NCBI RefSeq assembly: GCF_000003815.2 | Contig: NC_049981.1 | Span: 658,459 to 722,458, forward strand | DNA: 64,000 nucleotides | Origin: Branchiostoma floridae | Lineage: Eukaryota; Chordata; Leptocardii; Amphioxiformes; Branchiostomatidae | Direction: 5' to 3' | Part shown: piece by piece, positions 25,122-53,480 of the stretch | Layout of the letters: every line of letters begins with the position of its first letter | How positions within the stretch are numbered: the first letter of the stretch is position 1 | Notes under the pieces: model-generated | What the model saw: only the letters and a program-made list of their open reading frames with translations | What the model was told of the DNA's origin: nothing | Databases searched by the model: none | Position numbers and translations under genes: made by a program

Positions 25122-25490
25122 ATGGAAGGAAAGTTGCCAGGAAATGGTATGATCTTCTACGACCCGCCTGGAGATGATGGTTTTCCTCGACCAACGACCA
25201 CGATGGCGCCAATTTTGGTTAACCTGAACTTGGCACAGCTTTTGTTCGGAACAACCTTCAGCATACCGTGGCGATCACAGCTGAACTCGGGGTACAACAG
25301 TTTGGCCATGGATGGACTCTTGATAGAAGAACCACTAAAACGTTCACGAAGCCTCCTACTTCGGCTGCACACGAACAATGTGGTATCAATAACAGTTTCT
25401 ACTGATGTATCGTCTAACCTTCAAACAATTGTGGCCAAAGTGGTGGGGATGGATGAGGGAGACTTCTGGCTGAGCATCGGAGGACGTAAG
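25122..25490 (+). CDS. Ubiquitin-like N-terminal exon, possible 5' exon of the DUF7869 gene
   Basis: An open frame (also open upstream to an ATG at 25029) encodes 123 residues from MEGKLPGNGMIFYDPPGDD to FWLSIGGRK, then a consensus donor (AAG|gtatgt) in phase 0. Residues 80-123 (LLRLHTNNVVSITV, SSNLQTIVAKVVGM, DFWLSIGGRK) match the order of a ubiquitin-like fold: first beta hairpin, helix, then the 'l.f.Gk' strand around the equivalent of Lys48. The fold then stops at the donor. The next gene downstream starts with a phase-0 acceptor (31213) and reads an ubiquitin-like tail ending LRLRGG, so splicing across would complete the domain, though it would be about five residues short. The start codon is uncertain. 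A separate truncated gene is the alternative. Confidence 0.5.
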
Positions 25491-25499
25491 GTATGTCAT

Positions 25500-26485
25500 C
25501 TTCATATATGTATAATTTGCGATAAAAGCCGAACAGCCTAAAATACGATTTCAAGTTTTGGCGCAATTGTATTTTTAACTGTTTGGGGAGGGGGGCGTTT
25601 GCCCAGAGCTGCAGGTTTAGCGTGTTGTTGGATCATACGCATGTCAGTGTACTTTTGACGAAGTATCATGTGAAGGTGTACGCTAACATTATGAGAACTC
25701 TCGTAAACCTTCCCAAAGCCATTCAATCCACCACGCACAAATTGTTTTGTCGCATGTTAGGTACTGCGGTTGGCGCCAAAAAGTTACCAACCGCCCCCGT
25801 CGACGTCACGGTTGCGTAAACTCACTGCGCTTTTTGTTTCATTCTGCAAATGAAGCTACCCTGTATTGATAAATGCATCACATTGTTACATAAATAGATA
25901 AATGTCGACAGGCCCATAGCTAAGGTATAGTTTTATTTAGGATTTCATGTGCGTTGGTGATGGGGAAGGGCTGTGCTGTATGTGAAACAACGGGTCACGA
26001 TTTCCCCTCAAATTAACCTTAATAAAGTTATACTATAGCCACCACACCGTTATTCTCCAAGCAGAGATTGGGTTGCAGAGATAGTAGTGGTAGAGGTCGG
26101 GATTTTTTAACGGAGGGGCGCGAGCCGGTAAAAATCGCGATCACTACTATCTCCACGAGAATAAAAACCGTGAGCTTATCACTATCTCCACGATGCTGGG
26201 AGTGTAGACCACCCGCCCAGTTCACAAGCGCAGGACGATCAATTTAAGAAGAGCGCTATTAGACTATTAGACAGATCATGATAGTGGCCTGGACGGCGAC
26301 AAGTCGAAAGGCCGGCTAAAAAGACAGACTACCCGACAAAGGAAATTAATAAACGCGTGGATGTCATCCATAAAATTTACTTGCTGTGGCCTACATGTAT
26401 GTTACGATACCGTAGCATCTGCTTGGACGGATGTAGAGTTACGGGCCGGCCGCGGGTGGTAGTTTGCAAACATTCCGCGCACCGC
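25500..26485. other. Presumed intron or intergenic stretch with MITE remnants
   Basis: A diverged TTATTCTCCAAGCAGAGATT element with an internal hairpin (GAGATAGTAGTG / CACTACTATCTC) lies at 26047-26157, and a solo end of the 7222 family at 26360-26393. No gene is seen. Confidence 0.5.
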
Positions 26486-26486
26486 C

Positions 26487-26620
26487 AATGTCCAAGCAGA
26501 GGTTAGGCTCCGGTTGTGTTTTTAACGTTTTTAGTTTGTAAACCTTTCATCGGGCTTTCTATGTTGCACTGTTTTCTTGGCGTCTCGCGGCCTTTAATGC
26601 CAGCACACGGAACTCACAAT
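26487..26620. mobile_element. Half copy of the TACTCTCC foldback family
   Basis: GTCCAAGCAGAGGTTAGGCT is followed by diverged left-arm sequence (CGGGCTTTCTATGTTG). No right arm is present. Confidence 0.6.
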
Positions 26621-26665
26621 GCCCCACAAACCTAATCACTTCAACACATTATAGCCGTCTAGCAC

Positions 26666-26876
26666 TACTCTCCAAGCAGAGGTTAGGCTCCGGCTGTGTT
26701 TTAACGTTTTTTTTAGTCGTTTTTACCGGGCTTTCTATTTTGTCATTTTTTTTCGCTGTGTCCGGTCTAATTAGGTTTAGACACAGCAAGATATAATACA
26801 AAATAGAAAGCCCGATAAAAACGACTAAAAAAAAACGTTAAAAAACAGCCTGAGCCTAACCTCTGCTTGGAGAGTA
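26666..26876. mobile_element. Complete foldback MITE, 211 bp, 9-bp target duplication
   Basis: The element begins TACTCTCCAAGCAGAGGTTA and ends TAACCTCTGCTTGGAGAGTA, and is inverted over nearly its whole length (about 95 bases per arm). GTCTAGCAC flanks both ends exactly (26657-26665, 26877-26885). It is the best-preserved copy of the family seen at 10595, 16116 and 26487. Published amphioxus MITE families (LanceleTn) are similar in style; I cannot assign it to one. Confidence 0.85.
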
Positions 26877-27217
26877 GTCTAGCACCTACGTTCAAAGTGC
26901 GCGCCGTGCAACCAAGACACCCCCCCCACGCCCCAATTCTGTATCAAATTCTTCTGCCCAACACATCCCTTGAACCTATAATTTTTAACTTTCTCGCTGC
27001 GGAAATTTATATAAATGTTGTAGTATCGCAGATATCTAAAAAAGGAGTATATGCATAACAAACAGTACACCGTGATCATGATGTAAAAAAATCGTCACGA
27101 TTTCCATGTCCGCCAGAAAATTATTATTCTATTTTTCTTCTAAAGAATAATGAAACAGCGGATAAGAACAATGTGAACAGTCCTATTGTGCCACTTGAGA
27201 GGTCTTGAAGTTTCCAT

Positions 27218-27780
27218 TTGTCAGAACTCCATCGTACATGTCGTTGTTTTTTTCTTTTCCAAACCAAGGAGCCTGTCTTTTCCCTTGCCCCAACCAAGGA
27301 CATTATATATAAGTTGAATGTTGAAACAGGCAGATACCACAATGTAGCCCCCGACCAAAGGTTTTGTCCTTTCTGCCCAAATCATATTGAAGATGAATTT
27401 CATTTTATAATGGAATGTTCTAGATGCGCTAGTTTACGCAATGAATTATTCACGTTTCTCGAAGCAAGTACAACATATTTCAAAAGACGATGCTACAGAC
27501 AGATTTGCACATTTATTTAGATTTCAGAACTCCCATAATGCAAAAATAGGCAAATATATCAATGACTGCTTTGCTATTAGAAAGAATACTGAAGCTATTG
27601 ATTAGCCTACTTCATTATGATACTATACGAATGAATTATGCATATTAGCCCTTATTGTTATGTTAACTATGATGTTAAGCTTTATCCTATACCTCTATAT
27701 TTTGTACTTTATGTAATAGTTGTTGGCATACTTTGTACCATGTACAATTGTCGTGCAATAAAGTTCTGTATATCATATAT
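27218..27780 (+). mobile_element. LINE 3' end, CR1-like ORF2 C-terminus plus tail
   Basis: The plus frame reads YKLNVETGRYHNVAPDQRF, then CPFC, IEDEFHFIMEC and LRNELF. C-P-F-C with the following H and C forms a CCHC-type knuckle. A frameshift near 27485 moves the final 'KYINDC' segment to another frame. The tail carries TTTGTACCATGTACAATTG and GCAATAAAG. It is truncated and inactive. Confidence 0.75.
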
Positions 27781-28130
27781 AATGTCATGGCCCAAACAAA
27801 CAGCCTGTGTTGTTCAACCCTGCTCCCCAAATGAGGAGATTCCCCGGAAATCTGATATACATATTGGCTGCTCCGCTGCTCCAACCCCTCTAACCCCAAG
27901 TCACGGTGAGGCCTACTCGCTAATGTTTACGTTTTAGCGCGGATGCACACGGGATGGGTGGTCCAGGGTGGCTGTGAGACCAAAAAGATCGTCGCGGTAC
28001 GGCGGCGTGCTAATTTGCACCTCCCTTCGAATTGAAAACTTCTTGAAACAGCGGAGGCGCGTGCTTGGCGCGTGCTTTTTTTATTTTTACTACGTTTTTT
28101 TTCTTTTCTTTTTTCCCCCACATTTTTGAT

Positions 28131-28162
28131 GCCGCTACGCTGGGTGAAATTACAGCGTAGCG
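28131..28162. repeat. Perfect hairpin
   Basis: CCGCTACGCTG and CAGCGTAGCGG form an 11-bp stem around a 10-base loop. No promoter or gene context was found. Confidence 0.6.
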
Positions 28163-28270
28163 GGCTTTTTACAGTGTTGTTTTTCCAACCCATATGCTGA
28201 AAAGGCCTGGCGAGAACACTGATGACAGCGGATATTAGCGGCTTGACACTGTTGTCTGCTCGGAGATCAA

Positions 28271-28749
28271 GGTCTCATTGATGTATTACTCCGCGAGTGG
28301 GTACCCTAAAAGAGATCCGAGCCAAAAATGAACGGCTGCACGGACGCATGTTTTTAGCGGTGAGAAATTCCCTTTTAGCCAGCGGAACTGATCTCAAAAG
28401 TTAGATTGGTGAAAGATTATTTGTAACTGAAGAAATTAGCAGGTAAAGTTTTGCAGCCGCGCGCTAGGTCGGAGGTACACAGTCGTGGGTTCTGAGTGGT
28501 GCGGTTGTACAATAGCAGCGAAAAAGTGCCTTTTGTGGGGATTGACTAATCGTAGTTTGTAATTGCTATAAAAAAAGTTCCTACGTATAGTTTACATTGG
28601 CAATTTTTTCCCACGATATAGGGTAAATGTGCTCGACATAGAATGAAAAATCTGCTGAAATTTCACGTAGCTTCATTATGAACGCGCCCATTTAAACCAC
28701 GAATTAATACATAGAAGTCTATGGGAAGAAGAAACTCATCAATGAGACC
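28271..28749. mobile_element. MITE copy A, 479 bp, TCAA target
   Basis: Perfect 13-bp ends GGTCTCATTGATG / CATCAATGAGACC are bordered by TCAA on each side (28267-28270, 28750-28753). The interior is collinear with copy C at 29944. No frame is conserved. Confidence 0.85.
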
Positions 28750-28860
28750 TCAAAGGCCATTGATTGCATCCGGCTCCTTCGCGACCGAGAGAAAGTCTAC
28801 GTTCATTGGGTGCATGTGGTAGAATATTGTTTGAAACGTGTCATTCGTAGAGCGGCTTAA

Positions 28861-29064
28861 GGTCTCATTGATGTATTACTTCGCGAGTGGGTACCCTAAA
28901 AGAGATCCGAGCCAAAAACTGAACGGCTGCATGGACGCATGTTTTTAGCGGTGAGAAATGAAAAATCTGCTGACATTTCATGTAGCTTCATTATAAAGGC
29001 GACCATGTAAAACACGAATTATAACATAGAAGTCTATGGGAAGAAGAAACTCATCAATGAGACC
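28861..29064. mobile_element. MITE copy B, 204 bp, TTAA target, internal deletion
   Basis: The ends are the same as in copy A and TTAA flanks both sides (28857-28860, 29065-29068). About 275 bp are missing from the middle; the breakpoint follows GCGGTGAGAAAT. Confidence 0.85.
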
Positions 29065-29369
29065 TTAAATAAATATGAAAAATATTCATAAAAAATCAAC
29101 GATTTGCGCTGGAGCAAAAAATTGAAAAGGTTTTATAACCGGGCGCCAGCCCGCATTTTTTGGCTGCAGATTACTCCGTCTACCTATTTCCGTTAACATG
29201 GTAACGGACGAGTCTACATTTCCAAGGGGCGTTATTATTGTTATTTTTCTTGTATCGTACTCTACTAGATATATAAGCCATTTGAAAGAGGACTAAGGTT
29301 CTAAAGCTGTCTTTCTTGGTGTAAACTACTTCCAAGTTATTTTTTGCATTCTCCGCCTTGTCCCGAACG

Positions 29370-29389
29370 CCCCCCCCCCCCCCCCCCCC
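29370..29389. repeat. Poly-C tract
   Basis: Twenty consecutive C, a region where length is unreliable. Confidence 0.9.
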
Positions 29390-29943
29390 GCGCTAGGCGT
29401 CACACCTATGAAAAGGCCAATCAGAAAGGCTCAGTTTGGCTTGCCCGCCTCTGACATAAGGAACCTTGAAACGCAACTAACGTCAATTTCTAGTAATGAA
29501 GCTCTGTTTTGACTTGGTGAGCTATAGTACCTTCACCCGATCTGCCATATAACCGTTACTACTAGTATTTGTCGTAGAAGGATCCGTATGAATCTCGTCG
29601 TGCCTGTCGTGCTGAGATCCCTTTCACGACTATTCTCTGATATATATTCCAAATAAACAAAGACAAAATTCACAAAGAGAGCATTACTCAGTCAAACTCA
29701 TAGACAGACGGATCTAATGAGTCTTTCCGACACGTCAAAAGCGTCATTCTCGACGCCTTTGCACTTTGTCCTATAGATTGGCAACAAGGCCGCTAGGTGG
29801 CGCTTTTACGTCTAGAATGACCTCGCACTTAATTACCTCTCAGAGGCTAATTCATTAACGTACGACACCCAGACTTTCAGAGATGATTAAGAAAACGACA
29901 TTCTTTCCTCTGAGAGATTTTTTTATTAATACATTAAACTTAA

Positions 29944-30423
29944 GGTCTCATTGATGTATTACTCCGCGAGTGGGTACCCTAAAAGAGATCCGAGCCAAAA
30001 ACTGAACGGCTGCATGGACGCATGTTTTTAGCGGTGAGAAATTCGCTTTTGGCCAGCCGAACTGATATCAAAAGTTAGACTGGTGAAAGCTTGCTTGTAA
30101 CTGAAGAAATCAGCAGGTAAAGTTTGACAGCCGCGCGCTAGGTCGGAGGTACACAGTCCTGGGTTCTGAGTGGTGCGGTTGTACGCTAGCAAGGAAAAAG
30201 TGCCTTTTGCTGGGATTGACTAATTGTAGATTGTAATTGCTATAAACAACAAACCTATGGATTCTAGTCATTGGCAATTTTTTTCTATTATATAGAGTAA
30301 ATTTGCTCAACATAGAATGAAAAATCTGCTGACATTTCATGTAGCTTCATTATAAAGGCGACCATGTAAAACACGAATTATAACATAGAAGTCTATGGGA
30401 AGAAGAAACTCATCAATAAGACC
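29944..30423. mobile_element. MITE copy C, 480 bp, TTAA target
   Basis: Full-length relative of copy A with one mismatch in the right end (CATCAATAAGACC). TTAA lies on both sides (29940-29943, 30424-30427). Confidence 0.85.
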
Positions 30424-30429
30424 TTAAAC

Positions 30430-31212
30430 TTTAAAGAGTGACCATGCCCATGCTGTTCAGTTCAGTAATGATAAAGAGAGGGGGGAAATGGACACAATTG
30501 TTTCAGACTGATGAGACTTTTAAGATAGACGACGAACCTTACCGGTGGTGTTGTGGTGTTGGTACCACCAGTACGTTACCTTAACCCGTCTGTTCTATCC
30601 TTTTTTGTTTGTGATGGTGACGCCGCTACCCTACCCCACATATCGTGTCTGCGCTATCTGCGAGTAGACAGGAAATGGAGTTCTCTTCGGAACTTGGGGA
30701 GAAAAGAATTACCATTTCCTGCTGTCGGATCACAGAAGCATTAGAGAACCTCCCCTTACTCACCCAAGATGTTACCTCCCCTCCCCTCTCCCTGGACGGT
30801 GGATCTCAAAGCAGCTTTTTTTCTCTAACTATTTCTTGGGGAGTAGAAACTATTTTGCTTAACAAGTCCCAAAGTCTTTCAAAGATGAACATACAAACTT
30901 AAAATCAGTTACGTGATCCTCTGAATTACACAGTTAATAAACAAAGCCTGTGCAAGAACGGAGAGTTGTGGCTATAGTACAATAAACTGTAACAGAGATG
31001 GCCTTTAGACATGAAAACTAGAATATCAGCTAAAATTGCTGGTTTTCATGCATTCATGCAAGGACATTGTTTCAATAAGTGTTCAAAATGACCCGCCCTG
31101 AGTAGTATACAGTGTCATAATTCATGGTTACAATTAGTTCCTATAACCACCGAATGAATGACCGAACGTGGTCAACAGACATAGAATACAAACGCTTTGT
31201 AATGCTTTACAG
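30430..31212. other. Stretch upstream of the DUF7869 exons, no gene recognised
   Basis: Frames at 30553-30902 show no motif. If the ubiquitin-like exon at 25122 belongs to the DUF7869 gene, this is intron; a small missing exon of the ubiquitin-like fold (about 15 bases net) could lie here but was not found. Confidence 0.4.
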
Positions 31213-31221
31213 GTAACCAGC

Positions 31222-34200
31222 ATGGCAGGTGTGACATCTGAGAATGAGATTATCAATGTTCAGCTTAGACTGCGTGGAGGACAGCCCATGGAAGACGACC
31301 CAAGCAATGCTACCCAAACAGAAGCTGGAGAAGCACATACCAGCTCGTCCGCCAAGAGACAAGTTACATCTGACAGAGGTTTGTATACAACATACATGTA
31401 TGTAGATACAAAAACAAGACCATAGCATGTACATGTAGATTTACCATTCCAACAGACTTACTATACATTATGGCTCTATCAATCCAAGGAGCTTTTATCT
31501 ATCCCTATATATATATATCTATATCTATATATATCTATATATATCTATATATATCTATCTATCTCTATATATATATATATATATATATGTAGGAAGGTGT
31601 GTGTGTGTTAATACATATTATCATATAACCAGGTGCCGCGGACCAATCAGAAGGCCCAGTTCAACGTTGATTATGACGCAGTAACATAAAGATTCCGGCC
31701 AGGCCGGTGTGTTCGCTCCTTCTGATTGGTCAGAATGAATCGACACCGGCACCGTTGTCGATTTGCATCGACACCGGCACCAGTGTCGATGCAAATCTAT
31801 ACCGTGTCGATCCATTCTGACCAATTAGAATGATCAATATACACAAGAAAGTAGGGGATATGCAGGCATTGGCCAATCAAAAGGAGCGAAACATAAGCCA
31901 AAGCAGTGGGAATAAGTACGGACTGCAAGGGGGGAATGGCTCATTCTGTTAACATTGGTAATGAGTTTTGTTGTTTGGAAATTTTGGTTTTCAAAAAGGA
32001 ATCTGTAATCTCCTTACAAATGTATGTACCAAAGAACAAATGTGAATTTCAGAAATTCGACAGCGGAATTCACACGTATAGTACCAAGGGATGTATGCGT
32101 CACACAGGAGTTTGCAAGTTTGGGTAGGCTATATGATAATAATGTTAATGACCCGCCTGTTCCATGGTGTACATGGTGTCAGCCTGTCAGGCGTTAGAAA
32201 AGGACCAGGCGTTATGACACCATATACACCTCGGGGCGGGTCACTACCCCTTAAATATACCACGGCTACAAAAAAGGCAATTGCTATGATCAGTTGTTGT
32301 ACGCTAGAAATCCCTAAAGTAGACCTATGTGTATATCATTGAGTTTTTAATCTTTTCACAGATACCACTAATTTTTTTTTCGCAACATGCTATTTACAAA
32401 GGGTTGGTGGACAAGTCAGAAAAATCCCCAAAAGGCAAGTGCGACAGCATATTCTGTTGCACAAAAGCTTAATCTAACTTGTCCTGCTTTACAATGTGCA
32501 TTCTTGTTGCATTACTCACATGAATAAAACACATGCGATGTTCAGTCTCAGGTTATGATGAGTTATTTGTTTCCCTTTCTTCTAGATCCTTTGAAAAGGA
32601 TGAGAAGGGTAAAGGCCATGGACATGGACCACATCCGAATAAAGCTCATGGAAGGATGTAAATGCAAGCACAGTTGCCACATAGAAGTTGATGAGATTGC
32701 TGTCCTAGATTTTCGACAACGAGTCCATGTGTTGCCGGAGGGCCCTATACGACAAACAAGGCTCCTGGAACTCTACAGGACATGTAAAGTCCATGTGGAA
32801 GGACAAGGCGAGAAGTATCTGGTTAATGGAGCATTTGTTTGCATGTAAGTGGTTTGATTTAGTATGATCGGATTGGCAACTACAAAGTCTCACACTACAG
32901 TACACAGGTTTCCACATTAACTCACCTTTATCTGAAGGGTAACCTATACCAAATGTTTGTAAAAAGCGAACGTTCAGGGATATCATGTTGACAAATGGTT
33001 GTTTGAAATTCTGATATTAAAGCAAAAATCTAGTATATTTTCAAAATATCGAAATTTGAAACCACTGGTCTTGACCTGATACTGTAAATGCATTCAAGTT
33101 CACTGGGATTTAATTTGGCGGTAGTGGGAATAAGGACTTTTCGCGGTGGATTTAAGTTCGCGGTAACACCATAGACTGCAGTCTAATACCATAATATAAA
33201 AATGTTCGCAGTGGTTTTAAGTTCGCGATGAAGTGGTCAACCGTGAACATTAATCCACCGCGAACATTTCTGCATTTACAATATTCCTAGATGCCCAGTT
33301 TTAAAAACAAGTGATATTCCAAGCTAGGAGGCTTACCACTCAGACAAAAGGTGAACTGCCATGACAAGTTTTCAATGGCACCTGTCATAATTTGCTCCGC
33401 CACTTTACGTTTACTGGAAAAAAGCATAAAGCAATGGATTGGAATTCTATTCTAATGCAAGATGTAATATTAACTTCCAGGTACACCTGGTACGGCATTT
33501 GCCTTGGGATCTCCCGGTCCAGTCATTACCGCATAATGGGCGATCTGAACCTTGGTTACTATGCTGTTGAGAGGCAACCAGCACTTGAAGGAAACCTTGG
33601 AGCAAAAGGTAACATGTTCTGTAATGGTTGTAAATATGTGCACAGTCAAAATTGTCCTAAGCAACCACTGAAGGCCACCACTGAGCTTGATGTCTATCAC
33701 TTTTGTTTCTGAGAAGTTTGTTAAAGACCCAAGCAAAGATGTGTTTGCTGGTTGGTCAAGACAGTTGGTTGCTTGGGAAATGGTCTTAATTATGTAAAAA
33801 TGGATGGGACTGTTTCAATGTGTCCTCTGACAACAGGTGGTTGCCTGTATCTTTGCATAATCAATGCAAAACTGCCATAATTCTTTTAAGTAATAAATGA
33901 TTGGATTTTCAACATTGTGGCCTGTATAAGTTAGTTAAAGGTGTACATAACCAAGCATATACATAACCAAGCATAGACAATGCAGATGTGAAAGTAATTT
34001 GCATAATCACAATATTTCATGTAGATATGAGGCCTCTGAACTCAATGTTGGGTAGCATTTGTATGCATGCATGTTTTTGTGTAGAAGACCAGCATAATAG
34101 AGAATGCCTGAATGTATTGTATTGATACTTGGCATGTTGGTAGATCTTGACAACACCTGGAAATGATTAGATTTTTGGACCCATAATGGGCTTGTTACGG

Positions 34201-37200
34201 TACTGCAGTAGAACTTCTGGTCATGCTATGGTCTTGTTTTTGTAGTGTTAGATAGCTCTTGGGGCCGAGAGTACAGGTAAGTGGTGTAGGGTTGGCAGAT
34301 CGGCATGATTATTGGTCTGTTGATTTAATATAATGGTTTGTTAAGTGATCATCCTGCTAAAATGAAAGACAATAACATGAAAATAACATAAAAATCCTTT
34401 TGGAATTAGATGGAAGTCATATGCGTTTTCCTTTCTTTGTATTTTAGGAAGTATAGCCAAAGGCTTCCTGCAAGCATATATCACAACGATGGGAGACAGA
34501 AGCCCTGACAGCCGAAGGATTCTGTTACCTGTGGGGCTGACAAGGACTGAGATCTACTTGCAGTATAAGGACCAGCACAAAGTTGCAGCAGTCACCCTCT
34601 CGTATTTCTGTTCAATTTGGCAGAAACACTTCAAGCAGGTTTCTATCCCAAAGGTAAGAAGAAACGTGAAGGCTCAAATTTGTTTTGCGTAAAAACAAAA
34701 CGTCATAGGACTGCCTCAATTTGTATTTAAGTAACATGGCTCAAAATACCACCTGCATATGCAGGTAAAATCGCAGCTGTGCAGGTATTTCTGATGTATT
34801 GGGTTTTATACATAAATGTACTATGATGTAGATGTATACGGAATGTTACTAGCTGCATTGACTGTTACCACCTATAAAGTATAAAAGAAAAATAGCAATG
34901 GTTCCTAAACAGTTTTAGTATGATCCATAATTCCTAATATGAAAGTGGTGCAGGTAAAATTTGCCTGGTGCAGGTAATTTTCAATGTTACCTGCACCAGT
35001 GTAGGTATGCAGAAACAAGAATTTCGAGCCCTGAGTAATGATAATGAGGCTATAGTGCTTTATAGTTAGGTAAACTGAGGACACATTACCTACATTAACA
35101 AAGTTGTGCCTTGTACATGTAGCAGCTTTCTTGGATCAGGAAGACTATAGCTAGGGTTTACCCTGTTTTGAATAAATGATTTCTCCATGCAGGTGCAAGA
35201 TGAATTCTCAAGATAGACTTGTGACAGTGTTGCAATATACTTCATTTCTTCTAATACACTGTCCACTTCATTTGTGGTTTCAGGCCTGTCGCATGAAACA
35301 GTGCGATGTCTGTATGCTTGCCAAACAGACCATCGCATCAGAGGTTTCACACACTGCGAGGCAGAGTTTGATAAGCAAATGGAAGAGACATTTACAACGT
35401 CAACAGTAAGTTTTACACGTACAAAAAAGTGTAATGAAACTAACTTTGTTAATCATATTGCTTTTGAGATTTTACCTGTCATTCGTTTGTATGTGCATCA
35501 CTGCAAAGCCCACTCACATTCTCAACACTGGTGTTACATTTAAAATATATGACCTTTACTCAGGCCTATCTAAAAAGAAACACCTCAACAGTTACGTTTT
35601 ATTTCATGTTACATATTTTCCATGAGAAGAAACAAAACAAACGTCATATGTAAATCTTGCTCTGTAGGAATGAGAGAGAGACATATTATGAGAGGAGAGC
35701 AAGAGCAGAAAGCAGACGAAGGGACTACCTGAGTCTGATTTTAGATGGGATGGACCAGTCCAAATCAAATCTGCCCCACTTCAAGGGATGGACTGAACCA
35801 AAGGTAGGTTAATGCACTAGAAGTCTGTCAATGTTACACTGGGGTTATGTGGCATTGTTAATATATAGAATGTGCATGTCTTCTTAGCTATCTAGATGGA
35901 AACCTGTATGGTATGCATTTTTGACCCATGAAAACATTTCCAGAATTGTGTTAAATCTATTGTAGTTTCATGACTAACATGTGTTAAAATTACTAATTTT
36001 TCTTATATATCTATTAATTCAATTTATTCATTGTTTTCTTAGCTATGATAGCTAGTAGTTGGATTTAGCAGCACTATAAGATCATATCAACACTTGTCCA
36101 TTACAAAACTGCTACTAGTTTATTTAGATGTTTAACTTTTATCACTTTCGCGGCGGTGTACCCATAACTCTAGTAAAGCTGCCTACCTACAGGATGGCGG
36201 ACAGGGAGTAGCACCCCTGCCCTTGAGGAGCTAGTCTCTCACCCCTCCCCCACAAATAAACTTGAGTATGTTGCCCTAGATATGGGATTTGATATGATAG
36301 TGATGAAACCATCCCCGATTCAGCCAGGGAGACAGTGTGGAACAGGGCCGCTGGATTTCCAGCGAGGGAGACAGCGTAAAACAAGGCTGTTGGATTTCCA
36401 GCCAGGGAGGCAGTATTGAACAGGGCCGCTGAAAATCCAGCCAGGGAGGCAGTGTTGAACAGGGCCGCTGGAAATCCAGCCAGGGGGGCAGTGTTAAACA
36501 GGGTTGCTGGATTTCCAGCCAGGGAGGCAGTGTTAAACAGGGTTGCTGGATTTCCAGCCAGGGAGGCAGTGTTAAACAGGGCCGCTGGAAATCCAGCCAG
36601 GAGGCAGTATTGAACAGGGCCGCTAGATTTCCAGCCAGGGAGGCAGTGTTGAACAGGGCTGCTGGATTTCCAGCGAGGGTGGCAGTGTTGAACGGGGCTG
36701 CTGGATTTCCAGCCAGGGAGGCAGTGTTGAAAAGGGTCGCTGGATTTCCAGCGAGGGAGGAAGTTTTGAACAGTAGTTGGATTTAGCAGCACTATAAGAT
36801 TCATATCAACACTTATCCATTACAAAACTGCTACTAGTTTATTTAGATGTTTAACTTTTATCACTTAATTTCTTTTTTTTTACATTCAGTCTGCTGGAAA
36901 TGCAAGACTAGACACCCACATCACCGGTGCAATTGTACATGGAAGGAACACCTACGCACTACTGGACCTATCACAGTATCCACACGACTCCAACCTGGCC
37001 ATGAACTCGCTACTCCACATAATGGTCTGCGAAGCTGAGAATGGCCAGCTTCCACCCATCCTTAACATCCAAGTGGATAACTGTGGTCGAGAAAATAAGA
37101 ATCGCTTCTTCCTGGGACTCATGGGCTACCTGGTGAAGAAGAACTTTTTTGAAGAGGTAAGCCATGAATCATTGTCAAGGTGTGAGACTCAATGCTGTGT

Positions 37201-39866
37201 GTAAAAGTTACAAACCTCCAATTTTTTTGGATGTTGAGAAAATACATTGCTAAATATTTTTAATAAGTTTTAAAAAAGCAACACAGAACTTTCAAAACCC
37301 TGTCAATGTTACAGGACTGAATCAAAATTCAATTTTGAGAAATCTGATTACTACTTTTCATGACAATTAAACTGGTCTCACAAATTAGATACAAAGCTAC
37401 TTGTTATTACCTCCATGAAAAATGGAGGTATAGTTTTTGGTGTGTCTGTGTGTGCGTGTCCGCATATTTGTGGACATCATAACTTGAGAACCTCTCAATG
37501 GAGTACGATGATATTTGGTATGTGGGTAGGGGTTGGGAAGACGAAGGTCAAGGTCAATTTTGGCCCCCTTAGTGTGTGACCTTGGTACTGCAGCAGAACT
37601 TCAATTTTTTGTATCTTTTTATCTGGACATGCTATGGTCTTGATTTCTTGGTGGCAGATAGCTTTTGATGTAAGGAAGAAGTGGTGTATGTTTGGGCCCC
37701 CTAGCAGCTTGCCCTGGAACTGCAGGAGCATTTTTGTCAAAATCTTCCAAGAAGCATAACAGAACATAGGAATGATGAATTTCCATGATATTTGGTATGC
37801 AGGTACATGTGGCAGAGATGTACATAATGAAATCAAAATTATGCAAAGTTGGACTTCATTTGCATACTTAATGAGGAAAATTTATATTTACAGTGTTTTC
37901 CAATATATCGCTCAAATACATGTTACATATGTAGTTTGTGGCACGCGGAAGTTTAGCAGAAATTAATTATGCAAATAAGTCCCTAATTTGCATAATTAAT
38001 TTGAAAGTGTCCTAATTTTTCTTAGTACGTGTAGTAAATGATTGGTCTGTCAACACTGTGACCTGTCTACGTTAGTTAAAGGTGTACATAATCAAGCATG
38101 AATTATGCTAATTTGAAAGTAATTTGCATAATCAGAATATTTTCTTTCACAGATTACTGTGAATTTTCTTATGGTAGGCCACACGCATGAAGATGTCGAT
38201 GCAGTATTCAGCCAGTTCAGCCACCGGCTGGATCGAAAAGACGCAAAGACGCTGGATGAGCTGGAGACTGTGCTGAAGGACAGCTTCCATCCGGCGCCAA
38301 AGGTGGACAACTTTTTGGTGATGTGGGACATCAAAAACTGGCTGAAGCCTTATTTGGCCCCGATTGAAGGCCATTCCAAGCCTCATATGTACAGGTATGT
38401 GAACTGCCTACACTTCTGTCTGGCTTTATAAGACAGGAACATATAATGTGTACTCATTTCCTCGACTATCATTAAATATTGAATGAAGGGTTGGGCAGGG
38501 AGATGCACGTGGATATGTTGATTAGGATATTACTAAAATAATGACAAGTTTATTGCAAGTTCTCGCCCGAGGGCTAATTGGGACAAAATGACGGCAAACA
38601 ATGGTTAACAGCATTTTTAGTGAGCGGCTGCTCCAGTCTAAAAAATGATGCCAAACGTCAACTTCTTTAATGACATCATTTCCATGATGACAAACAAGTC
38701 CACAAAAAGATTACCTCTCTTTCAGGTTTACTAAAGATAGGAGCGAACGCGCCAACATGCAGTACAAGATGTGGTCAACCGACACTGTGTGGCGACCATC
38801 CGCAACGGACCCGGATCTCCAACTGTTCAAAGAAGTTGATGGCGAGCAGCAAATACCAACTGGACAGCCAGCCTTTGTGGAGCCACACTTCGAGGAAGAA
38901 GACCTTAAGAAGTTAAAGTCATCAATCGAGAAAATGAGGGACCATCTCAACTACCAGCAGTGGCAGTGGTGGCAGACATTTTTAGATAACCCAAAAGCCA
39001 TCCACCACACCTCCACCACACCTCCATCCTGGTTTCTCGACAACCTCCGTCCATTTCAACCTTTGCCACCTGTTCCACTAACATCAGATGAAGGGCAGAG
39101 GACAGCACTGCAGAGGCTGCTAAACAAGGAGCTCAACTGTCCTCCTGTGAGTCATCACATTACTGTTATATCTTTATTTATCCTCATATATTTATCTATA
39201 TATCTGTATGCACAATATTTCAAATACACTGTAGCACCCCAGTGAAGCAATCACCTCATATCACTATCCTCTACCTAAATAGCAGATGAACATGACATGA
39301 TGTTGATACTTTTTGTGAAGCAAAAATTGTTCAGAGAACCTTCTTTGCCAATAGGTCATTTAATTCTTTTTAAATCATAATTGCAAAGCAAATCCTCCTA
39401 TAATCATTTATTCATAGAAAAAGGCAAAGTTGCATCTTGGTTCTCTGTGATATGAACTTCAACGTAGCAATGCCACAGGGGTCCCATAGTTTGTCCTTAT
39501 AGTTTTTCAAATGTATCTTTTCAATAGGTATCTAACAAAGGAAAAAAGAGGCAGCAGAGTCAGCAGCCCTGCGTAGCACAGAAGAAGAGAAGAGGAGGCA
39601 ACAGTAAGCCAAAAAAGAATGACATGGCTGCATTTTTTGATGACAAGAAAAGAGTAAAAGTAGGAAAAATTGAATGGATCATTGAGGAAAAAGCAAAACT
39701 ATTAATGTACAGGGGAGCCCTAGGCAAAAAATATGTTCCATATAAGAACAGTGCAGGTAATCCAATGTGTATGTACATTAACAAAGACTCTATTGTCGCA
39801 CATTTTAAACTAACTGGGGATAAAATCCCACCCAACATTGTCGAGAAATTACAAGAGAAGATGTAA
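31222..39866 (+). CDS. DUF7869-type transposase-like protein, ten exons, intact
   Basis: Exons 31213-31378 (ATG at 31222), 32586-32844, 33481-33608, 34448-34653, 35284-35405, 35668-35803, 36890-37156, 38153-38394, 38726-39146 and 39528-39866 all have GT/AG borders and compatible phases. They sum to 2277 coding bases, 758 residues, with no stop. Residues 15-20 are LRLRGG, as at the end of ubiquitin. Residues 77-84 (CKCKHSCH) and 252-260 (CRMKQCDVC) are possible zinc ligands. Residues 358-362 (YALLD), 396-407 (IQVDNCGRENKN) and 433-444 (VGHTHEDVDAVF) form the DUF7869 core; D362, D399 and E438/D439/D441 could be an RNase-H-like metal triad. Residues 650-676 are rich in K/R (nuclear signal). DUF7869 is widespread in invertebrates and transposon-related by inference; the catalytic role is not proven. 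AATAAA at 40914 is a candidate poly(A) signal. It is either a domesticated gene or an intron-bearing element. Confidence 0.88.
31500..31590. repeat. (TA)n/(TATC)n microsatellite in intron 1
   Basis: AT-rich simple repeat between the first two DUF7869 exons. Confidence 0.9.
31643..31830. repeat. Foldback sequence in intron 1
   Basis: TTCTGATTGGTCAGAATG and its near-complement CATTCTGACCAATTAGAA enclose four copies of ATCGACACCGG/TGTCGAT-like words. An outer CCAATCAGAAGG / CCTTCTGATTGG pair also occurs. It is probably a degenerate MITE. Confidence 0.55.
32149..32243. repeat. Short foldback in intron 1
   Basis: TGACCCGCC with GGTGTACATGGTGTCA pairs with TGACACCATATACACC and GGCGGGTCA. The whole is about 95 bases; a short MITE is likely. 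Confidence 0.55.
33082..33281. mobile_element. MITE copy 3 of the CTGTAAATG family, in intron 2
   Basis: TA borders both ends (33080-33081, 33282-33283); the right end is CATTTACAA, one mismatch from the other copies. It lies between the second and third DUF7869 exons. Confidence 0.7.
33898..34330. repeat. Dispersed element in intron 3, related to intron 7
   Basis: TTAGTTAAAGGTGTACATAA, AATTTGCATAATCA and CATGCTATGGTCTTG-type blocks occur here and again at 37420-38130, but in the opposite order. This suggests a tandem or circularly permuted element. It has no frame. Confidence 0.5.
36054..36866. repeat. Minisatellite block in intron 6 between 94-bp direct repeats
   Basis: About 94 bases from AGTAGTTGGATTTAGCAGCA are present at 36054-36147 and 36772-36866 with two differences. 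Between them lie a C-rich unit also seen at 39880-40690 and an array of about 11 units of 39 bp (36318-36772). The right copy runs into the natural acceptor of exon 7, so the left copy is the duplicate. It looks like one inserted or duplicated block. Confidence 0.75.
37420..38130. repeat. Dispersed element in intron 7
   Basis: It starts near TTACCTCCATGAAAAATGGA (a short hairpin, CCTCCAT/ATGGAGG) and GTATAGTTTTTGGTGTGTC, a motif I associate with a common marine-invertebrate repeat. It continues with blocks shared with intron 3. No transposase is encoded. Confidence 0.5.
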
Positions 39867-40690: not shown

Positions 40691-40975
40691 CAAAAATGAA
40701 CTTGAGTATGTTGCCCTAGATGTGGGATTTGACATGATAGCCTTAACAAAAACTTGATGTGATGAAACCATATTTGTGCTTCTTATGGGCCACCTGGCCA
40801 GAATGTGGAAGAGTGCATTATTTCAACACCATTGTTACAGTATTTATTATCTAACATGTAAATGTGGTTATGTACTTGACCACATGTAAAGAGGTACATG
40901 CATTGCAAATTTGAATAAAGTTCTGTGTAAAGCACAAGGCCAGAAGTATGACTTTCTTTTGTAGAGTTTACAGAA

Positions 40976-41545
40976 ATTCCAGCCAGATTAACAGTGTTGA
41001 ACCAGGCCGCTGGAATTCTAGCAAAGGAGGCAGTGCTGAATATAACCGCTGGATTTCCAGCGAGGGAGGCAGTGTTGAACAGGGCCGCTGGAAATCCAGC
41101 GAGGGTGGCAGTGTTAAACAGGGCCGCTGGAAATCCAGCGAGGGTGGCAGTGTTGAACATGGCCGCTGGATTTCCAGCGAGGGAGGCAGTGTTGAACAGG
41201 GCCGCTGGATTTCCAGCCAGGGAGGCTGTGTTGAACAGGGCCGCTGGAAATCCAGCCAGGGAGGCAGTGTTGAACAGGGCTGCTGGATTTCCAGCCAGGG
41301 AGGCAGTGTTGAACAGGGTCGCTGGATTTCCAGCGAGGGAGGAGAGGGAGGAAGTTTTGAACAGGGCCGCTGGAAATCCAGCCAGGGAGGCAGTGATGAA
41401 CAGGGCCAGACTTCCAGCCAGGGAGGCAGTCTTGCTCTGGACCGCTGGAATTCCAGCCAGAGAAAACAGTCAAGTGGAAGCCGCTGGAAATCCATCCAAA
41501 CAAAAACCTAGGGTAAGGCGCTGGAATTCCAGCCAGGGAAGCAGT
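40976..41545. repeat. 39-bp minisatellite array, second copy
   Basis: About 14 units with the core GCTGGATTTCCAGC or its reverse complement, plus GGGAGGCAGTGTTGAACAGG. Because 39 is a multiple of three, several frames on both strands stay open for 170-190 codons. The preceding 150 bp also match 36156-36307, so this and the intron 6 block share an origin. Confidence 0.85.
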
Positions 41546-44121: not shown

Positions 44122-46531
44122 CCCATCAACTCACCGTCTGCCGACAAGGCCAACATCTTCACCTGGAACTACTTCAAGTTTGTGGAGGAACATCCCTACT
44201 TGTGGGTGTTCGACACCACACAGTGTTTCCCTGAGTCCAACAAAGTCAACATCATGTTCACTGTACCAGGTAATGACATATACAATTTGGAGTATAGAGA
44301 AGGATGGAGGAAGAGAGTCATGTCCATCCGTGCAACCAGCACGCCCGGATGATGATGATGATGACCGCTTGCAAATATCACAGTTATAATGCTACCTGCC
44401 ATAATTTACGAAGAAATTCATTTGACGATTTGCTTACTAAATACATCAATAATGTTTGTTACAAAATGTTGAATCCTTGACAATTTAGGTCATTACATTT
44501 TAGTGGTTTGATAAGTCCTTGCCACAGCAAATGGTGCTCTGGTGACACCCGTCTCTCTTCCTGCGTCCCTTCGTTACACAGATTTGTGCAATGACTCTAC
44601 ACAGCGAGGGTCTACTTTGCTGGTTGTGGTCTGTGGAGTGTTAGCAAGCAAGAAAGTCAAGAGCACCTGATAGCAAACCTTTACATTTCGGAATAAGGTT
44701 TTGTTACATATATATGTTTCAAAAGACTATCTGAACATGTTAATGTTTAGTGTAGATCTGCATTGTGTCGAGAAAGTCATGGTAACTCAAAGTTTCACTC
44801 TTTGTTTCTCCACAGCCGACTACAAGGCGGCGTTCCAGCTGAGTGAGACTCTGGCCCGTGACGTGTTCCTGTACGAGCTGGCTCGGGTCATGACAGTCTC
44901 TCCTCTCCGCATCCAGAACCTAGGGGTAAGTTTTTAAATTTCTTTTGCTTATAACGAAAAAATAAATAAAATTACATCAATCGGAGATGACATACTTCTC
45001 CAGGTTCTCCTCTTTTACTTAAGTTATAAACATACACAGGGGGAGAGAGGGGGCGGGAGAGATAGAAAGAGATGAACAGATGTACACATAGAGACGCGAC
45101 AAAACATGACTTCACTAACAGTAAGCTGAAGAAATAACAAGAAATTGGCCAAAGAAAGAAAAAAAAACTCGTTAATAGTAAAACTGACACCTGCTCTACC
45201 TGTTGGTTTCCACGCGGTATGGACGTCAGAGATGTCGACAGTTAGTTAGGTCAAAGGTCCAAGAAGTCTCTAGAATTAAACATGTGTGTCTTCAAGTGCG
45301 TGCTATATGCATGTACATTGCCTTATAATAGCCAACGGTAAAGTAAGTTAGACTGAGTCATTGAGAAAAATTCTGACTCTGTGAAAATATTGTTATCAGA
45401 TCTTCAATATCTCTTGTTTATTCTTGAACCCTTTCATATCGTCCCGTCCGCAGTTCACTTATACCAGTACAAGTGACGTCACCGTCAAGTTTACGTTGCT
45501 GGGCGTTCCCCCCGTCACTGGTAACGTCGCCGTCGTCAAGCCGCAGACGTCATTGGACGTCGCCAGGACTCTGCTGAAGAACGCCATCGACACCAACAGT
45601 TTCCAGGTCACCATTCAGCTGCAAAATGTGGTACGTCATCCATTTCTAACCAATGGTTGTGCTTGAAGATTACCTGGTTGGTTACTGATGACGATACACT
45701 GTCATCGATATTCACATCATTCTTTTGAGCAATGGACGCTCTTTGATGGTAACGTAATGCGGCTGCGGGGTCTTTGATCGATCGATATAGGGTCCTTGTA
45801 TTTAGAGGATTACAAAATCGTTGATACCGGATATTGAATGTCGCCACTTCCGTCTCCCAGCTGACCGTGGTTGTTCCCGCCTCCCCCGGCACCATCGTGG
45901 AAAACGCCATCTTTGATAACCAGTCATCCGAACTGATAGGATTCTCCGGCGGTAAGGATGTTCTTTTTTTAAATTTTCAATTAGAATTATAATACATACA
46001 CTAACTAACAAAAATGCTTCACTTTAGCTTTTGTGCTTAGATGAAACGTCAGGCAGTTCTCAACATTCAGTTCAGTTACTTTAACAATGAATGGCTTGAA
46101 CCATGTATCTAAGTCCTAAAACGACATACCATATTAATCAAAACAATATTTGCTGTGTACAATTTGTCATATGCTGAAGCCATGAGATTTGCCATAGCAC
46201 TGTTCAAGTTAGGGTAGATCCAAAAAGTCTTGTCCAAGAAATCACAGTTTGAGCTAAATGGGGTGTCGCTCTGACGAAAGCAGCAGTACAGTGACCAAAA
46301 AAAATATTTTTGTCCTTTATAGGGGCCATGGCTGGTGTGGCCCTAGGCCTGCTGATCGTGACCATTGCCCTGGGACTGGGCCTGATGTTCCTGCTGCAGC
46401 GCGGGTTCGGTGGGGGGTCCAAGGCTCCTGCAGTGGCGCGCAGTGGGGGAGGCAACTCCGCACCGACCGAGGAGAAGGTCCCGGGAGGCCTGGATAATAT
46501 CGACAATCCAAACTACAGCAGCACTGCATAA
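44122..46531 (+). CDS. Single-pass membrane protein, C-terminal five exons
   Basis: Exons 44122-44269, 44816-44925, 45454-45630, 45861-45951 and 46323-46531 join in phase to 244 residues plus TAA. The extracellular part has two alternating helix/strand modules (FQLSETLARDVFLYELARVM with VKFTLLGVP; then LDVARTLLKNAI with FQVTIQL), resembling SEA-like or other adhesion-type modules; no family is assigned. A strongly hydrophobic segment (AGVALGLLIVTIALGLGLMF, near residue 180) is followed by QR and a 45-residue Gly/Ser/Pro tail ending DNPNYSSTA, where NPNY could serve as a sorting or phosphotyrosine motif. The 5' part lies upstream, perhaps in or before the gap at 43904. GC-rich exons contrast with AT-rich introns. 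AATAAA at 46857-46862 is the likely poly(A) signal. The N-terminus and signal peptide are not seen. Confidence 0.75.
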
Positions 46532-50706: not shown

Positions 50707-51099
50707 TTACTTTTCTGTGTCAGAATTTGTCGAGTCGTCCATGTTTGACAGTCCATACATCAGCCCATTCGACGCCTGGTCGCCATCAAGACAACTCTTC
50801 TCCACTACCTCGCAGAGCGCATGCGTGCTATCAGTCTGCTCGTCGCTCATTGGTTCCTGCGCGAGACATTTATCACGACAACTGTCTGTGGAATCTTGCA
50901 CGACTTGTAGAAGACTCGGGTCCCTTCTCAGCCCCTCTATGAACTCCCTCAGAATGAGAAACCCATCCTGATCGCTGTCCAGTCGTTCGAAGATCTTCTC
51001 CGTCACCTCATGGATGTGGTGGTCTCTTTCGCGACGTTCTTGGGCCAGAAGGAACTCGTCTATGTTCGTTTCTTGAGGAATTCTTATGTCCTGGAGAAA
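50707..51099 (-). CDS. EF-hand calcium-binding protein, last exon
   Basis: A strong acceptor (TTTTATTTTATTTTGCAG) precedes 130 codons and a TAA at 50707. Exon residues 41-52 (DSDQDGFLILRE) are a canonical EF-hand loop with D, D, D, G and E at positions 1, 3, 5, 6 and 12. They are preceded by an amphipathic helix (VTEKIFERL) and followed by FIEGLRRDPSLLQVVQ, the usual exiting helix of small EF-hand sensors. The remaining 60 residues are acidic, with Cys and Ser/Asp/Asn and no domain. Earlier exons, which should hold the other EF-hands, lie at higher coordinates and were not found up to 59 kb. Calcium sensing is inferred; the subfamily is unknown. The 3' end merges into a tandem array. Confidence 0.75.
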   Translation of the reverse strand, partial: FLQDIRIPQETNIDEFLLAQERRERDHHIHEVTEKIFERLDSDQDGFLILREFIEGLRRDPSLLQVVQDSTDSCRDKCLAQEPMSDEQTDSTHALCEVVEKSCLDGDQASNGLMYGLSNMDDSTNSDTEK

Positions 51100-51109
51100 C
51101 TGCAAAATA

Positions 51110-53480
51110 AAATAAAAACGTTGGTGCTTTCATTAATTTGTTGTAATCAGAAAATGTCGTATTTTGACAGTAATCAGAAAACTTCGTATTTTCAGACTTG
51201 CTTATTTAGTCCATTTATTTAGTACAGAATTGTTTAAAAGTTACAAAACGTGTTCTTACAAAACATGGTGCTTAGTATATTTTTTATGATCTAATCCATG
51301 TTTTACCATACTTAATTACCATAGGAACCTTCTATTGGTAAATAACGGGCCCGGTTGGCCTTTTTTACAAGAAGATAATTTGTTGACCTTTAAGATCATA
51401 GTGAAACGATTGCAACTTTCGTACTAAAAGCTGTTGCCACTTTGAATGGTCCCAAAAGTTAAGTCTATTTTGATAATCGTCCGCCATACTCTAAATGGAC
51501 TCTTTATGTACGCATGCCTGTTGGCAGCTTTTAACATTTAGAGTTCGTCCAGGTTTTCTTCGAAAATGTTTCGCCTGGAGTAATGCAGTTGTAACTTATA
51601 GTGAATCTTTCTGAAGTAATGGAAGGATAATATATGCCAGCTACATTCGGGCTGCTGTATCAGTCCCATTCGACGCTTTCAGTGGGTAAAGTGCTCGCTC
51701 ACAAACTCCCCCGCTTCGTAAACTATACAACTTCTTTTCATGCTTAACATGCTTTCATGCTTATTCAGCACTTATGAGAAAGAGTATACAGTCACACATG
51801 TGGTATTGACCACGTCTGCATAAGGACTACCTGGTTATCAGTATACAGTGAAGCCTGAAGCAAAAGCTACGAATTTGTCCCAGTGAATTGGCGGTACTTC
51901 TTTGTGTTTTCATGGGTAGGTCACGGCGTCCAGTTGTCGCCGGGTCCCGGTTTAATTTTAACTGCGAGTTAAAATCCAGGAGCCTAGCCGTGCCCAAAAA
52001 TAGCCCGGTAGCCAAAGGGTATCCCACGTGGCCACCTAGGGGTAACACCCGAAAGTGCAGGAAACAAATGCAGTAAACTACCCAGACGGGCCTCTAAATT
52101 TGGCCGTAGCATAAGCAAAACTAATATCAGTAATGGAGTACAGAAAGGAGCGGTGTAGGATTCCAGAGCAGGCATGTGACGTCCTCCTTTGACAGGCTTA
52201 GCCATTTCTAACTAACAGTGTTCGACAGGAGGTTGCTGCTCACAAAGTGTAACCGACGGCAGAAACACCTTTTCGCTCATCTAATTTCCGCTGGAAGCTC
52301 ATGTCTGACGGTGAATGATGTAGCGTTTCTAAGTAACACGTGGAGGAATTTCTTTATGTATGCGTAGCTTTAAACGTGGAATGTTATCTTGGAATCATCT
52401 ATCATTGAACTGGCCGTCTACGGTCATAATTGTGGCCAAGCATCCATAAGTCATCGAGCCGAGGCCTTTCAACGTGCACCGATGTTGTATAAATGGGAAA
52501 AGTACTTGAGGCGACTTTGCTGGAGGTGAAAATGGGTACTTGCAATTGGCTTCTGATTGAGACGTCACTGTGGTAGGAATTAAATGGATGTCCCGTGTTT
52601 GAGAAGAAACACCTTTCGAGCACGTTAAAGAAAGCACCACACTTGATAAAAGGATTAACTTTAGGTCTGTGTGGGTGGTTTATAATCTTACAGTCCGATG
52701 CCCCCATCTGGAGCATTACCAGACGTAATTAGGTCACTAGAGCGCCTATTACAGACTGTAATTACAGACCCGTGCGATTCAGCCCCATGGAGCCAATTAT
52801 AAACTCCTCGCAATTCAGCCCCTGGCTTCGAAGAGAGGGAGATAGGGCAGTTGGTCCACCCGGCCCAATGACAGTAACAACACAAACATTGATTAAGAGC
52901 ATACATTACGTCTGTTAATATTTGCTATCGCATAGTTTTTGTCATCAACTTAATATCTACAATATAGTTTTATTTAAGGTTTTGAACCCTCTCTAATCAA
53001 GGAGTAAGCTTGTTATGTTATCAACTGATCTAACAGGACTTTGACGATGTTATCTGTATCTTTGTTACCCTCTTCAAATTCTCTCAAGATCGTAATGAAA
53101 AGCGACCTGCAGCTTGAGCTTCTCATGAATGAACAAAGATTTAAGCAAACAGAACAGAGTCACTACAAACGTGAGACTCTGTGCTGTAGGCTGTCTACAC
53201 GAATTGTCAAATCATTTTAAACAGCGCAGACAACGTACCATGTCCTGTTGATAAGGTTGGAGAAGACACTTATTAAAGCAATAGATAACATCGTTAGAAA
53301 GAATGATCCTGGTGCTTTCTTTCATAAAGATATGTATGGGCGTTTATTTATCAATAGCCCTGTTATTTAAGTCATTGTTTAAGGCCACCCACGGTCTCCA
53401 GACTTTCTCCAGACCATGGTTGAGAATTTGTCGCTAGCAGGTCACATGTGGTTAGGATTCGGTCGGCATGGTCACCTACA
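51110..53480. other. Presumed intron or intergenic sequence
   Basis: No exon could be defended. A copy of the GTGTTTGAG..GAGCACGTTAAAGAA repeat lies at about 52594-52650. Frames at 52395-52906 (minus) show no motif. Confidence 0.45.
52594..52650 (+). repeat. Dispersed repeat, second copy
   Basis: GTGTTTGAGAAGAAACACCT with GAGCACGTTAAAGAAAGCAC, diverged from 12474 and 58597. Confidence 0.45.

Follow-up and report, generated by a model that had tools for sequence, protein, structure and literature searches.

Ubiquitin fusion proteins, exemplified by the ubiquitin-ribosomal protein fusions and FUBI-RPS30, are among the closest described parallels to a possible leader on a DUF7869-family gene that lies in a 64,000-nucleotide stretch of the Branchiostoma floridae genome (C3:658459-722458; the whole stretch is called the window hereafter, and positions are counted from its first letter). 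As in these fusions, an N-terminal ubiquitin-like part of the window gene's product would end in a protease-cut GG, freeing the protein downstream; unlike in them, the downstream part is transposase-like, and the leader is not recognized by Pfam and has only a putative fold.

Transposons have also been tied to the ubiquitin pathway, several groups of them encoding proteases whose substrates are ubiquitin or ubiquitin-like proteins. The available part of one study describes Ulp1 and OTU domains in Ginger1, in Mutator elements (including those of the lancelet) and in other transposons, and proposes a role for the ubiquitin pathway in transposition (PMC2836005). In oomycetes, C48 peptidases occur in some Crypton elements (available part of PMC3212892), and certain fish F-box proteins carry the CxC7 cysteine cluster of Zisupton (KDZ) (available part of PMC12062965). 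The DUF7869 family resembles Ginger1, Mutator and the others in that a transposase family is tied to ubiquitin-like processing, with Ulp1 exons found near some DUF7869 relatives; however, as far as the accessible text of PMC2836005 goes, the protease of Ginger1 is C-terminal and its core is Gypsy-integrase-like, whereas the DUF7869-linked C48 exons lie upstream, and what the window gene may carry is a substrate instead of a protease, no C48 being found in the window. The fish proteins similarly combine a ubiquitin-pathway domain with a transposon Cys-rich module, but they have an F-box in place of a ubiquitin-like leader, and the accessible part of PMC12062965 does not name DUF7869. In the open-licence literature we found no description of a transposase-like protein with a cleavable ubiquitin-like leader and no paper under the name DUF7869. 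If true, such a leader would fit the transposon-protease pattern, and a transposase-like protein carrying its own would name a possible target of the transposon-borne proteases.

The DUF7869 gene and its LRLRGG site

A convincing model of 11 exons, in which every splice site is canonical and the phases agree, places the gene on the plus strand at 25122-39866, encoding 884 amino acids. The exons, which are predicted to be spliced as modelled, and the sites within them are as follows (exons are from the gene model, with any further basis in brackets):

25122..25490, plus strand: candidate exon 1, MEGKL...SIGGRK, with a phase-0 donor GTATGT; its last ~50 residues resemble ubiquitin strands 1-3 and the helix (by eye)
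31213..31378, plus strand: exon 2, VTSMAGVTSENEIINVQLRLRGGQPME and an acidic/Ser linker; contains LRLRGG and the alternative ATG
31264..31281, plus strand: LRLRGG, the same six residues that end ubiquitin, a possible cleavage site (unique in six frames)
31222..31224, plus strand: alternative start ATG, with A at -3 and G at +4, which would exclude exon 1 (sequence)
32586..32844, plus strand: exon 3, part one of a Cys-rich (probable zinc) module (homologues in relatives)
33481..33608, plus strand: exon 4, part two of the Cys-rich module (homologues in relatives)
34448..34653, plus strand: exon 5; two relatives have a similar stretch
35284..35405, plus strand: exon 6
35668..35803, plus strand: exon 7, containing DGMDQ, the first acidic motif
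36890..37156, plus strand: exon 8, first half of DUF7869, QVDNCGRENKN (Pfam)
38153..38394, plus strand: exon 9, second half of DUF7869, GHTHEDVDAVFS (Pfam)
38726..39146, plus strand: exon 10
39528..39866, plus strand: exon 11, including the stop codon

Exon 2 starts with VTSMAGVTSENEIINVQLRLRGG and includes INVQLRLRGG, in which a strand of alternating hydrophobic residues precedes the last six residues of ubiquitin; the C-terminal di-glycine in an LRLRGG context that marks ubiquitin-like proteins is thereby present in the window gene. LRLRGG occurs once among the 2192 six-frame segments of at least 20 amino acids in the window, whereas Markov copies of the window contained it in one of 40 cases (0.025 per window) and 0.0001 occurrences are expected in the protein by composition. 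The motif is real and is hardly expected by chance. Upstream, the 25122-25490 exon ends in LSIGGRK, with AAG followed by GTATGT, a phase-0 donor compatible with the acceptor at 31213, and the two exons may be joined. An earlier note on this DNA had proposed both this phase match and an LRLRGG equal to the ubiquitin end in the exon at 31213-31378; the splice sides do agree, and the motif is confirmed at 31264-31281.

The assignment to DUF7869 (PF25273) rests on a Pfam match at residues 464-651 with an E-value of 8.7e-75 and 251 bits, above the curated cut-off of 26; it spans positions 4-192 of the 192 in the profile. All three acidic motifs, DGMDQ, QxDN and GHTHEDVDxxFS, are found in the window gene; we infer that they are catalytic and that DUF7869 is a transposase-type (RNase-H-like) nuclease. 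In the 513 Mb assembly searched (431 contigs), at least 70 DUF7869 exon matches fall into 40 loci when clustered at 10 kb, the window included; across the matched stretches, identity between the relatives and the window gene is 23-59%. Their aligned rows, some of which are the same place in overlapping loci, keep the first acidic D in 8 of 10 cases and the second in 12 of 12, while 21 of 21 rows retain the final D of the third motif. Many of the alignments begin near residue 551, which is the exon 8/exon 9 junction, and this suggests that the relatives share an old intron there. A Cys-rich module like that of exons 3 and 4 is present in seven of the nine other DUF7869 loci whose upstream DNA was examined, the reach of that DNA varying among them and two of the seven having helped to build the module profile. 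In IMG/VR, a search for DUF7869 relatives yielded none that was confirmed.

Taken together, the window gene looks like a single-copy, intact and intron-rich member of the DUF7869 family, either derived from a transposase or belonging to a family that is still partly mobile. None of the 25 inverted pairs listed among 29 (at least 22 nucleotides, within the 20-45 kb part of the window) brackets the gene as terminal inverted repeats, shorter or more distant repeats not having been sought. Nor does it show the combination expected of an active DNA transposon, namely terminal inverted repeats with several near-identical copies: exon 1 has a single match in the genome, on which ground we also rejected the idea that this exon is a repeated transposon fragment.

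The candidate ubiquitin-like leader and its alternatives

Inspected by eye, the ~50 residues ahead of the exon 1 donor follow the ubiquitin order of strand, strand, helix and strand, with most core positions hydrophobic, and the joined exons could adopt a beta-grasp fold. In global profile comparison with hhalign, the join scored 18.6, above all of 300 shuffles (the best being 9.6 among 150 shuffles and 12.9 among 150 that kept the tail). The same tail was also joined to each of 426 open phase-0 donors, taken from the window and from other loci; exon 1 ranked first among them in this comparison, with the rest having a mean of 5.1 and a standard deviation of 1.5; with hmmsearch, exon 1 came first among 166 donors with one profile and second with the other, behind another donor of the same open reading frame (ORF). 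The global result is only suggestive, because exon 1 had originally been chosen for its resemblance to ubiquitin, because a non-ubiquitin DUF7869 gene fragment (one place, contained in both L014 and L020) reaches a near tie of 18.49 in the 426-donor test, and because in local mode the join, at 19.6, was exceeded by one of the 150 tail-keeping shuffles (19.9). As a ubiquitin-like leader, exon 1 is only suggested by these comparisons.

We tentatively propose that the window gene's product begins with a leader that is ubiquitin-like but divergent and has LRLRGG as its last residues. Cleavage behind GG by a protease of the host or of the family itself, either a deubiquitinase or an enzyme of the Ulp1/C48 type, would then set the Cys-module/DUF7869 protein free; alternatively, the leader would be retained as a docking tag. 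A leader of this type on the window gene is plausible, if unproven, and we hold it with less than even confidence.

Besides the three reservations just given, several results weigh against it. Set against the ubiquitin core pattern by eye, the join misses one residue in its first part and about five after GGRK, at the exon 1-exon 2 junction, and has one extra near the end. At E<=10, no Pfam ubiquitin family was matched by either exon or by their join, and phmmer found nothing for the leader among PDB sequences at the same threshold. A small hand-typed ubiquitin-like profile, used with hmmsearch --max, gave the join 4.1 bits, a score reached by 13 of 2000 shuffles and, where LRLRGG was kept, by 18 of 2000; a larger typed profile gave it 3.5 bits, as compared with 3.4 for yeast DDI1, 22 for elongin B and 26 for HERPUD1, three true ubiquitin-like proteins unseen by the profile, so that the join falls far below two of the three controls. 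The ORF at 25.1 kb on its own scored 0.6 bits with the ubiquitin-like profile, too little to place it among the top 15 stretches in the window. Profile scores this low would make the join, if it is a ubiquitin-like protein at all, a very divergent one. In the genome search exon 1 matched only itself, which leaves it without a second copy to show conservation. Among the relatives, a pairwise search of L012-L042 gave no match to exon 1 or exon 2 at E<=1, and in L012-L048 at E<=10 the best E-values were 2.8 and 7.1; this negative is weak, because exons 3 and 4 also escaped the same pairwise search, and yet the relatives have homologues of them that were recognized by eye and with a profile. In L012-L048, the pattern R[LIVM]RGG or LR.GG had two matches, neither of them LRLRGG (L049-L051 were covered for the Cys module, the ubiquitin-like profile and the C48 boxes and, on the plus strand only, for RGG and C48 motifs). 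All 40 DUF7869 loci lack a Pfam ubiquitin match within 400 kb, although a split and equally divergent domain would escape detection; the nearest of the 43 such matches is 428 kb from a DUF7869 locus, and a detectable ubiquitin domain is therefore not a feature of the DUF7869 family. The earlier note's reading, a ubiquitin-like leader fused to a transposase-like protein, keeps its gene, its LRLRGG and its phase match, and it loses support at the leader: no family search recognizes it, the Pfam ubiquitin-like families included, and no leader of this kind was seen in the homologues, here the distant relatives within the same genome.

It is quite possible, though short of probable in our estimation, that the protein begins at the ATG at 31222 (MAGVTSENEIINVQLRLRGGQPME...), which would put LRLRGG at residues 15-20 with no leader before it; exon 1 would then be a chance ORF or a part of something else, and LRLRGG a coincidence or a basic/hydrophobic motif without a ubiquitin fold. 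The strong context of this ATG, with A at -3 and G at +4, permits such a start, but the context of the ATG at 25122 is fair as well (G at -3, G at +4). Also in keeping with the shorter protein are the missing family matches in Pfam and PDB and the lack of a second genomic copy of exon 1, together with the 5.7 kb intron that follows exon 1, the longest in the model and rich in short repeats and inverted repeats, and the abundance of ORFs of at least 120 amino acids outside the exons of the window (at least 25). The rarity of LRLRGG after an alternating hydrophobic strand, and the first rank of exon 1 among the 426 candidates for completing the LRLRGG tail, argue instead for the upstream exon. 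Codon usage discriminates little here: 33 of 275 ORFs outside the exons reach the score of exon 1, yet five of the nine sure exons (3-11) themselves score higher out of frame than in frame.

The shortfall of about five residues and the poor score of exon 1 alone would also be expected if exon 2 ends a ubiquitin-like domain that is begun in some other, unrecognised exon or exons, with exon 1 not included. We consider this rather unlikely: among the 53 upstream open phase-0 donors of the window (those after shorter ORFs excluded), only the one at 25439, in the same ORF, scores higher than exon 1, and with just one of the two profiles, while none beats it in the global comparison. Still less probable is a leader that is joined to exon 2 and has a different fold or none, making LRLRGG coincidental; the weak profile scores would agree with this, but the core hydrophobic pattern and LRLRGG stand in register, both by eye and in the global score.

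Within the 5.7 kb intron, an interspersed repeat whose ends read TTAAGGTCTCATTGATG / CATCAATGAGACCTTAA is present in copies at 28266-30430, and we take it to be like a small non-autonomous element of the piggyBac type; at 26490-26880, the same intron has a near-palindromic repeat with CTCTCCAAGCAGAGGTTAGGCTCCGG arms. Separately, of the 15 segments listed for the hand-made ubiquitin-like profile, a minus-strand ORF at 209-490 had the top whole-segment score, which at 5.0 bits is not significant; this ORF has no Pfam match.

C48 protease exons beside DUF7869 relatives

Upstream of four of the nine relatives (C2, C17, C8 and C16), and on the same strand, are exons of an Ulp1-type (C48) protease, whose Cys box is ~3-6 kb ahead of the Cys-rich module. 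The C48 box search placed them as follows:

L040:1254-3056, same strand: C48 protease exons upstream of a DUF7869 relative
L043:316-1056, same strand: C48 protease exons upstream of a DUF7869 relative
L046:4752-7006, same strand: C48 protease exons upstream of a DUF7869 relative
L049:987-1431, same strand: C48 protease exons upstream of a DUF7869 relative

The Cys box and the conserved stretch that follows it are found at all four loci, the His box at two and the Asp box at one (by eye). In Pfam, PF02902 was matched above its cut-off by the Cys boxes of C17 (1.6e-5), C2 (1.1e-5) and C8 (6.8e-5), C16 being left out of this search; the His box of C2, at 0.031, does not reach the cut-off, and for the Asp box Pfam gave no match. 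A genome-wide search with the Cys box returned 11 matches, the best four of which (89-100% identical) are the four DUF7869-linked places, while none of the remaining seven (55-68% identical) falls at a listed DUF7869 locus; because the query was drawn from the four, it favours them in identity but not in location. PF02902 itself has eight matches genome-wide at E<=0.001, which include neither a place in the window nor any of the short C48 exons near DUF7869. No C48 exon was found at the remaining five of the nine loci within the stretch examined, which at one of the five contains an N run; for another of the five, on C4, a PF02902 match is ~48 kb upstream, beyond the part examined. A C48 head on the window gene itself was considered and rejected, no C48 having been found in the window. 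The adjacent C48 and DUF7869 exons may belong to one gene or to two neighbours.

The presence of this protease near the relatives links the DUF7869 family to ubiquitin-like processing even if the leader fails, and it is because of this link that ubiquitin-like processing is a sensible idea for the window gene. A broader and, in our judgement, unlikely possibility is that a transposase-derived family holds both halves of such a system, some members having an Ulp1/C48 head or neighbour and the window member a cleavable leader, so that one member could process another. Even without the leader, the DUF7869-linked subfamily of C48 proteases is a concrete lead on DUF7869.

Other features of the window

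Arrays of a 39-base repeat occur twice, at 36243-36873, in the intron before exon 8, and at 40902-41416, behind the gene. Further downstream, the minus-strand ORF at 50710-51129 has a weak EF-hand match (E 0.004), under the curated cut-off, and the ORF at 46295-46528 contains a probable transmembrane stretch (AGVALGLLIVTIALGLGLMFLL, by eye) and may be where a gene for a membrane protein ends.

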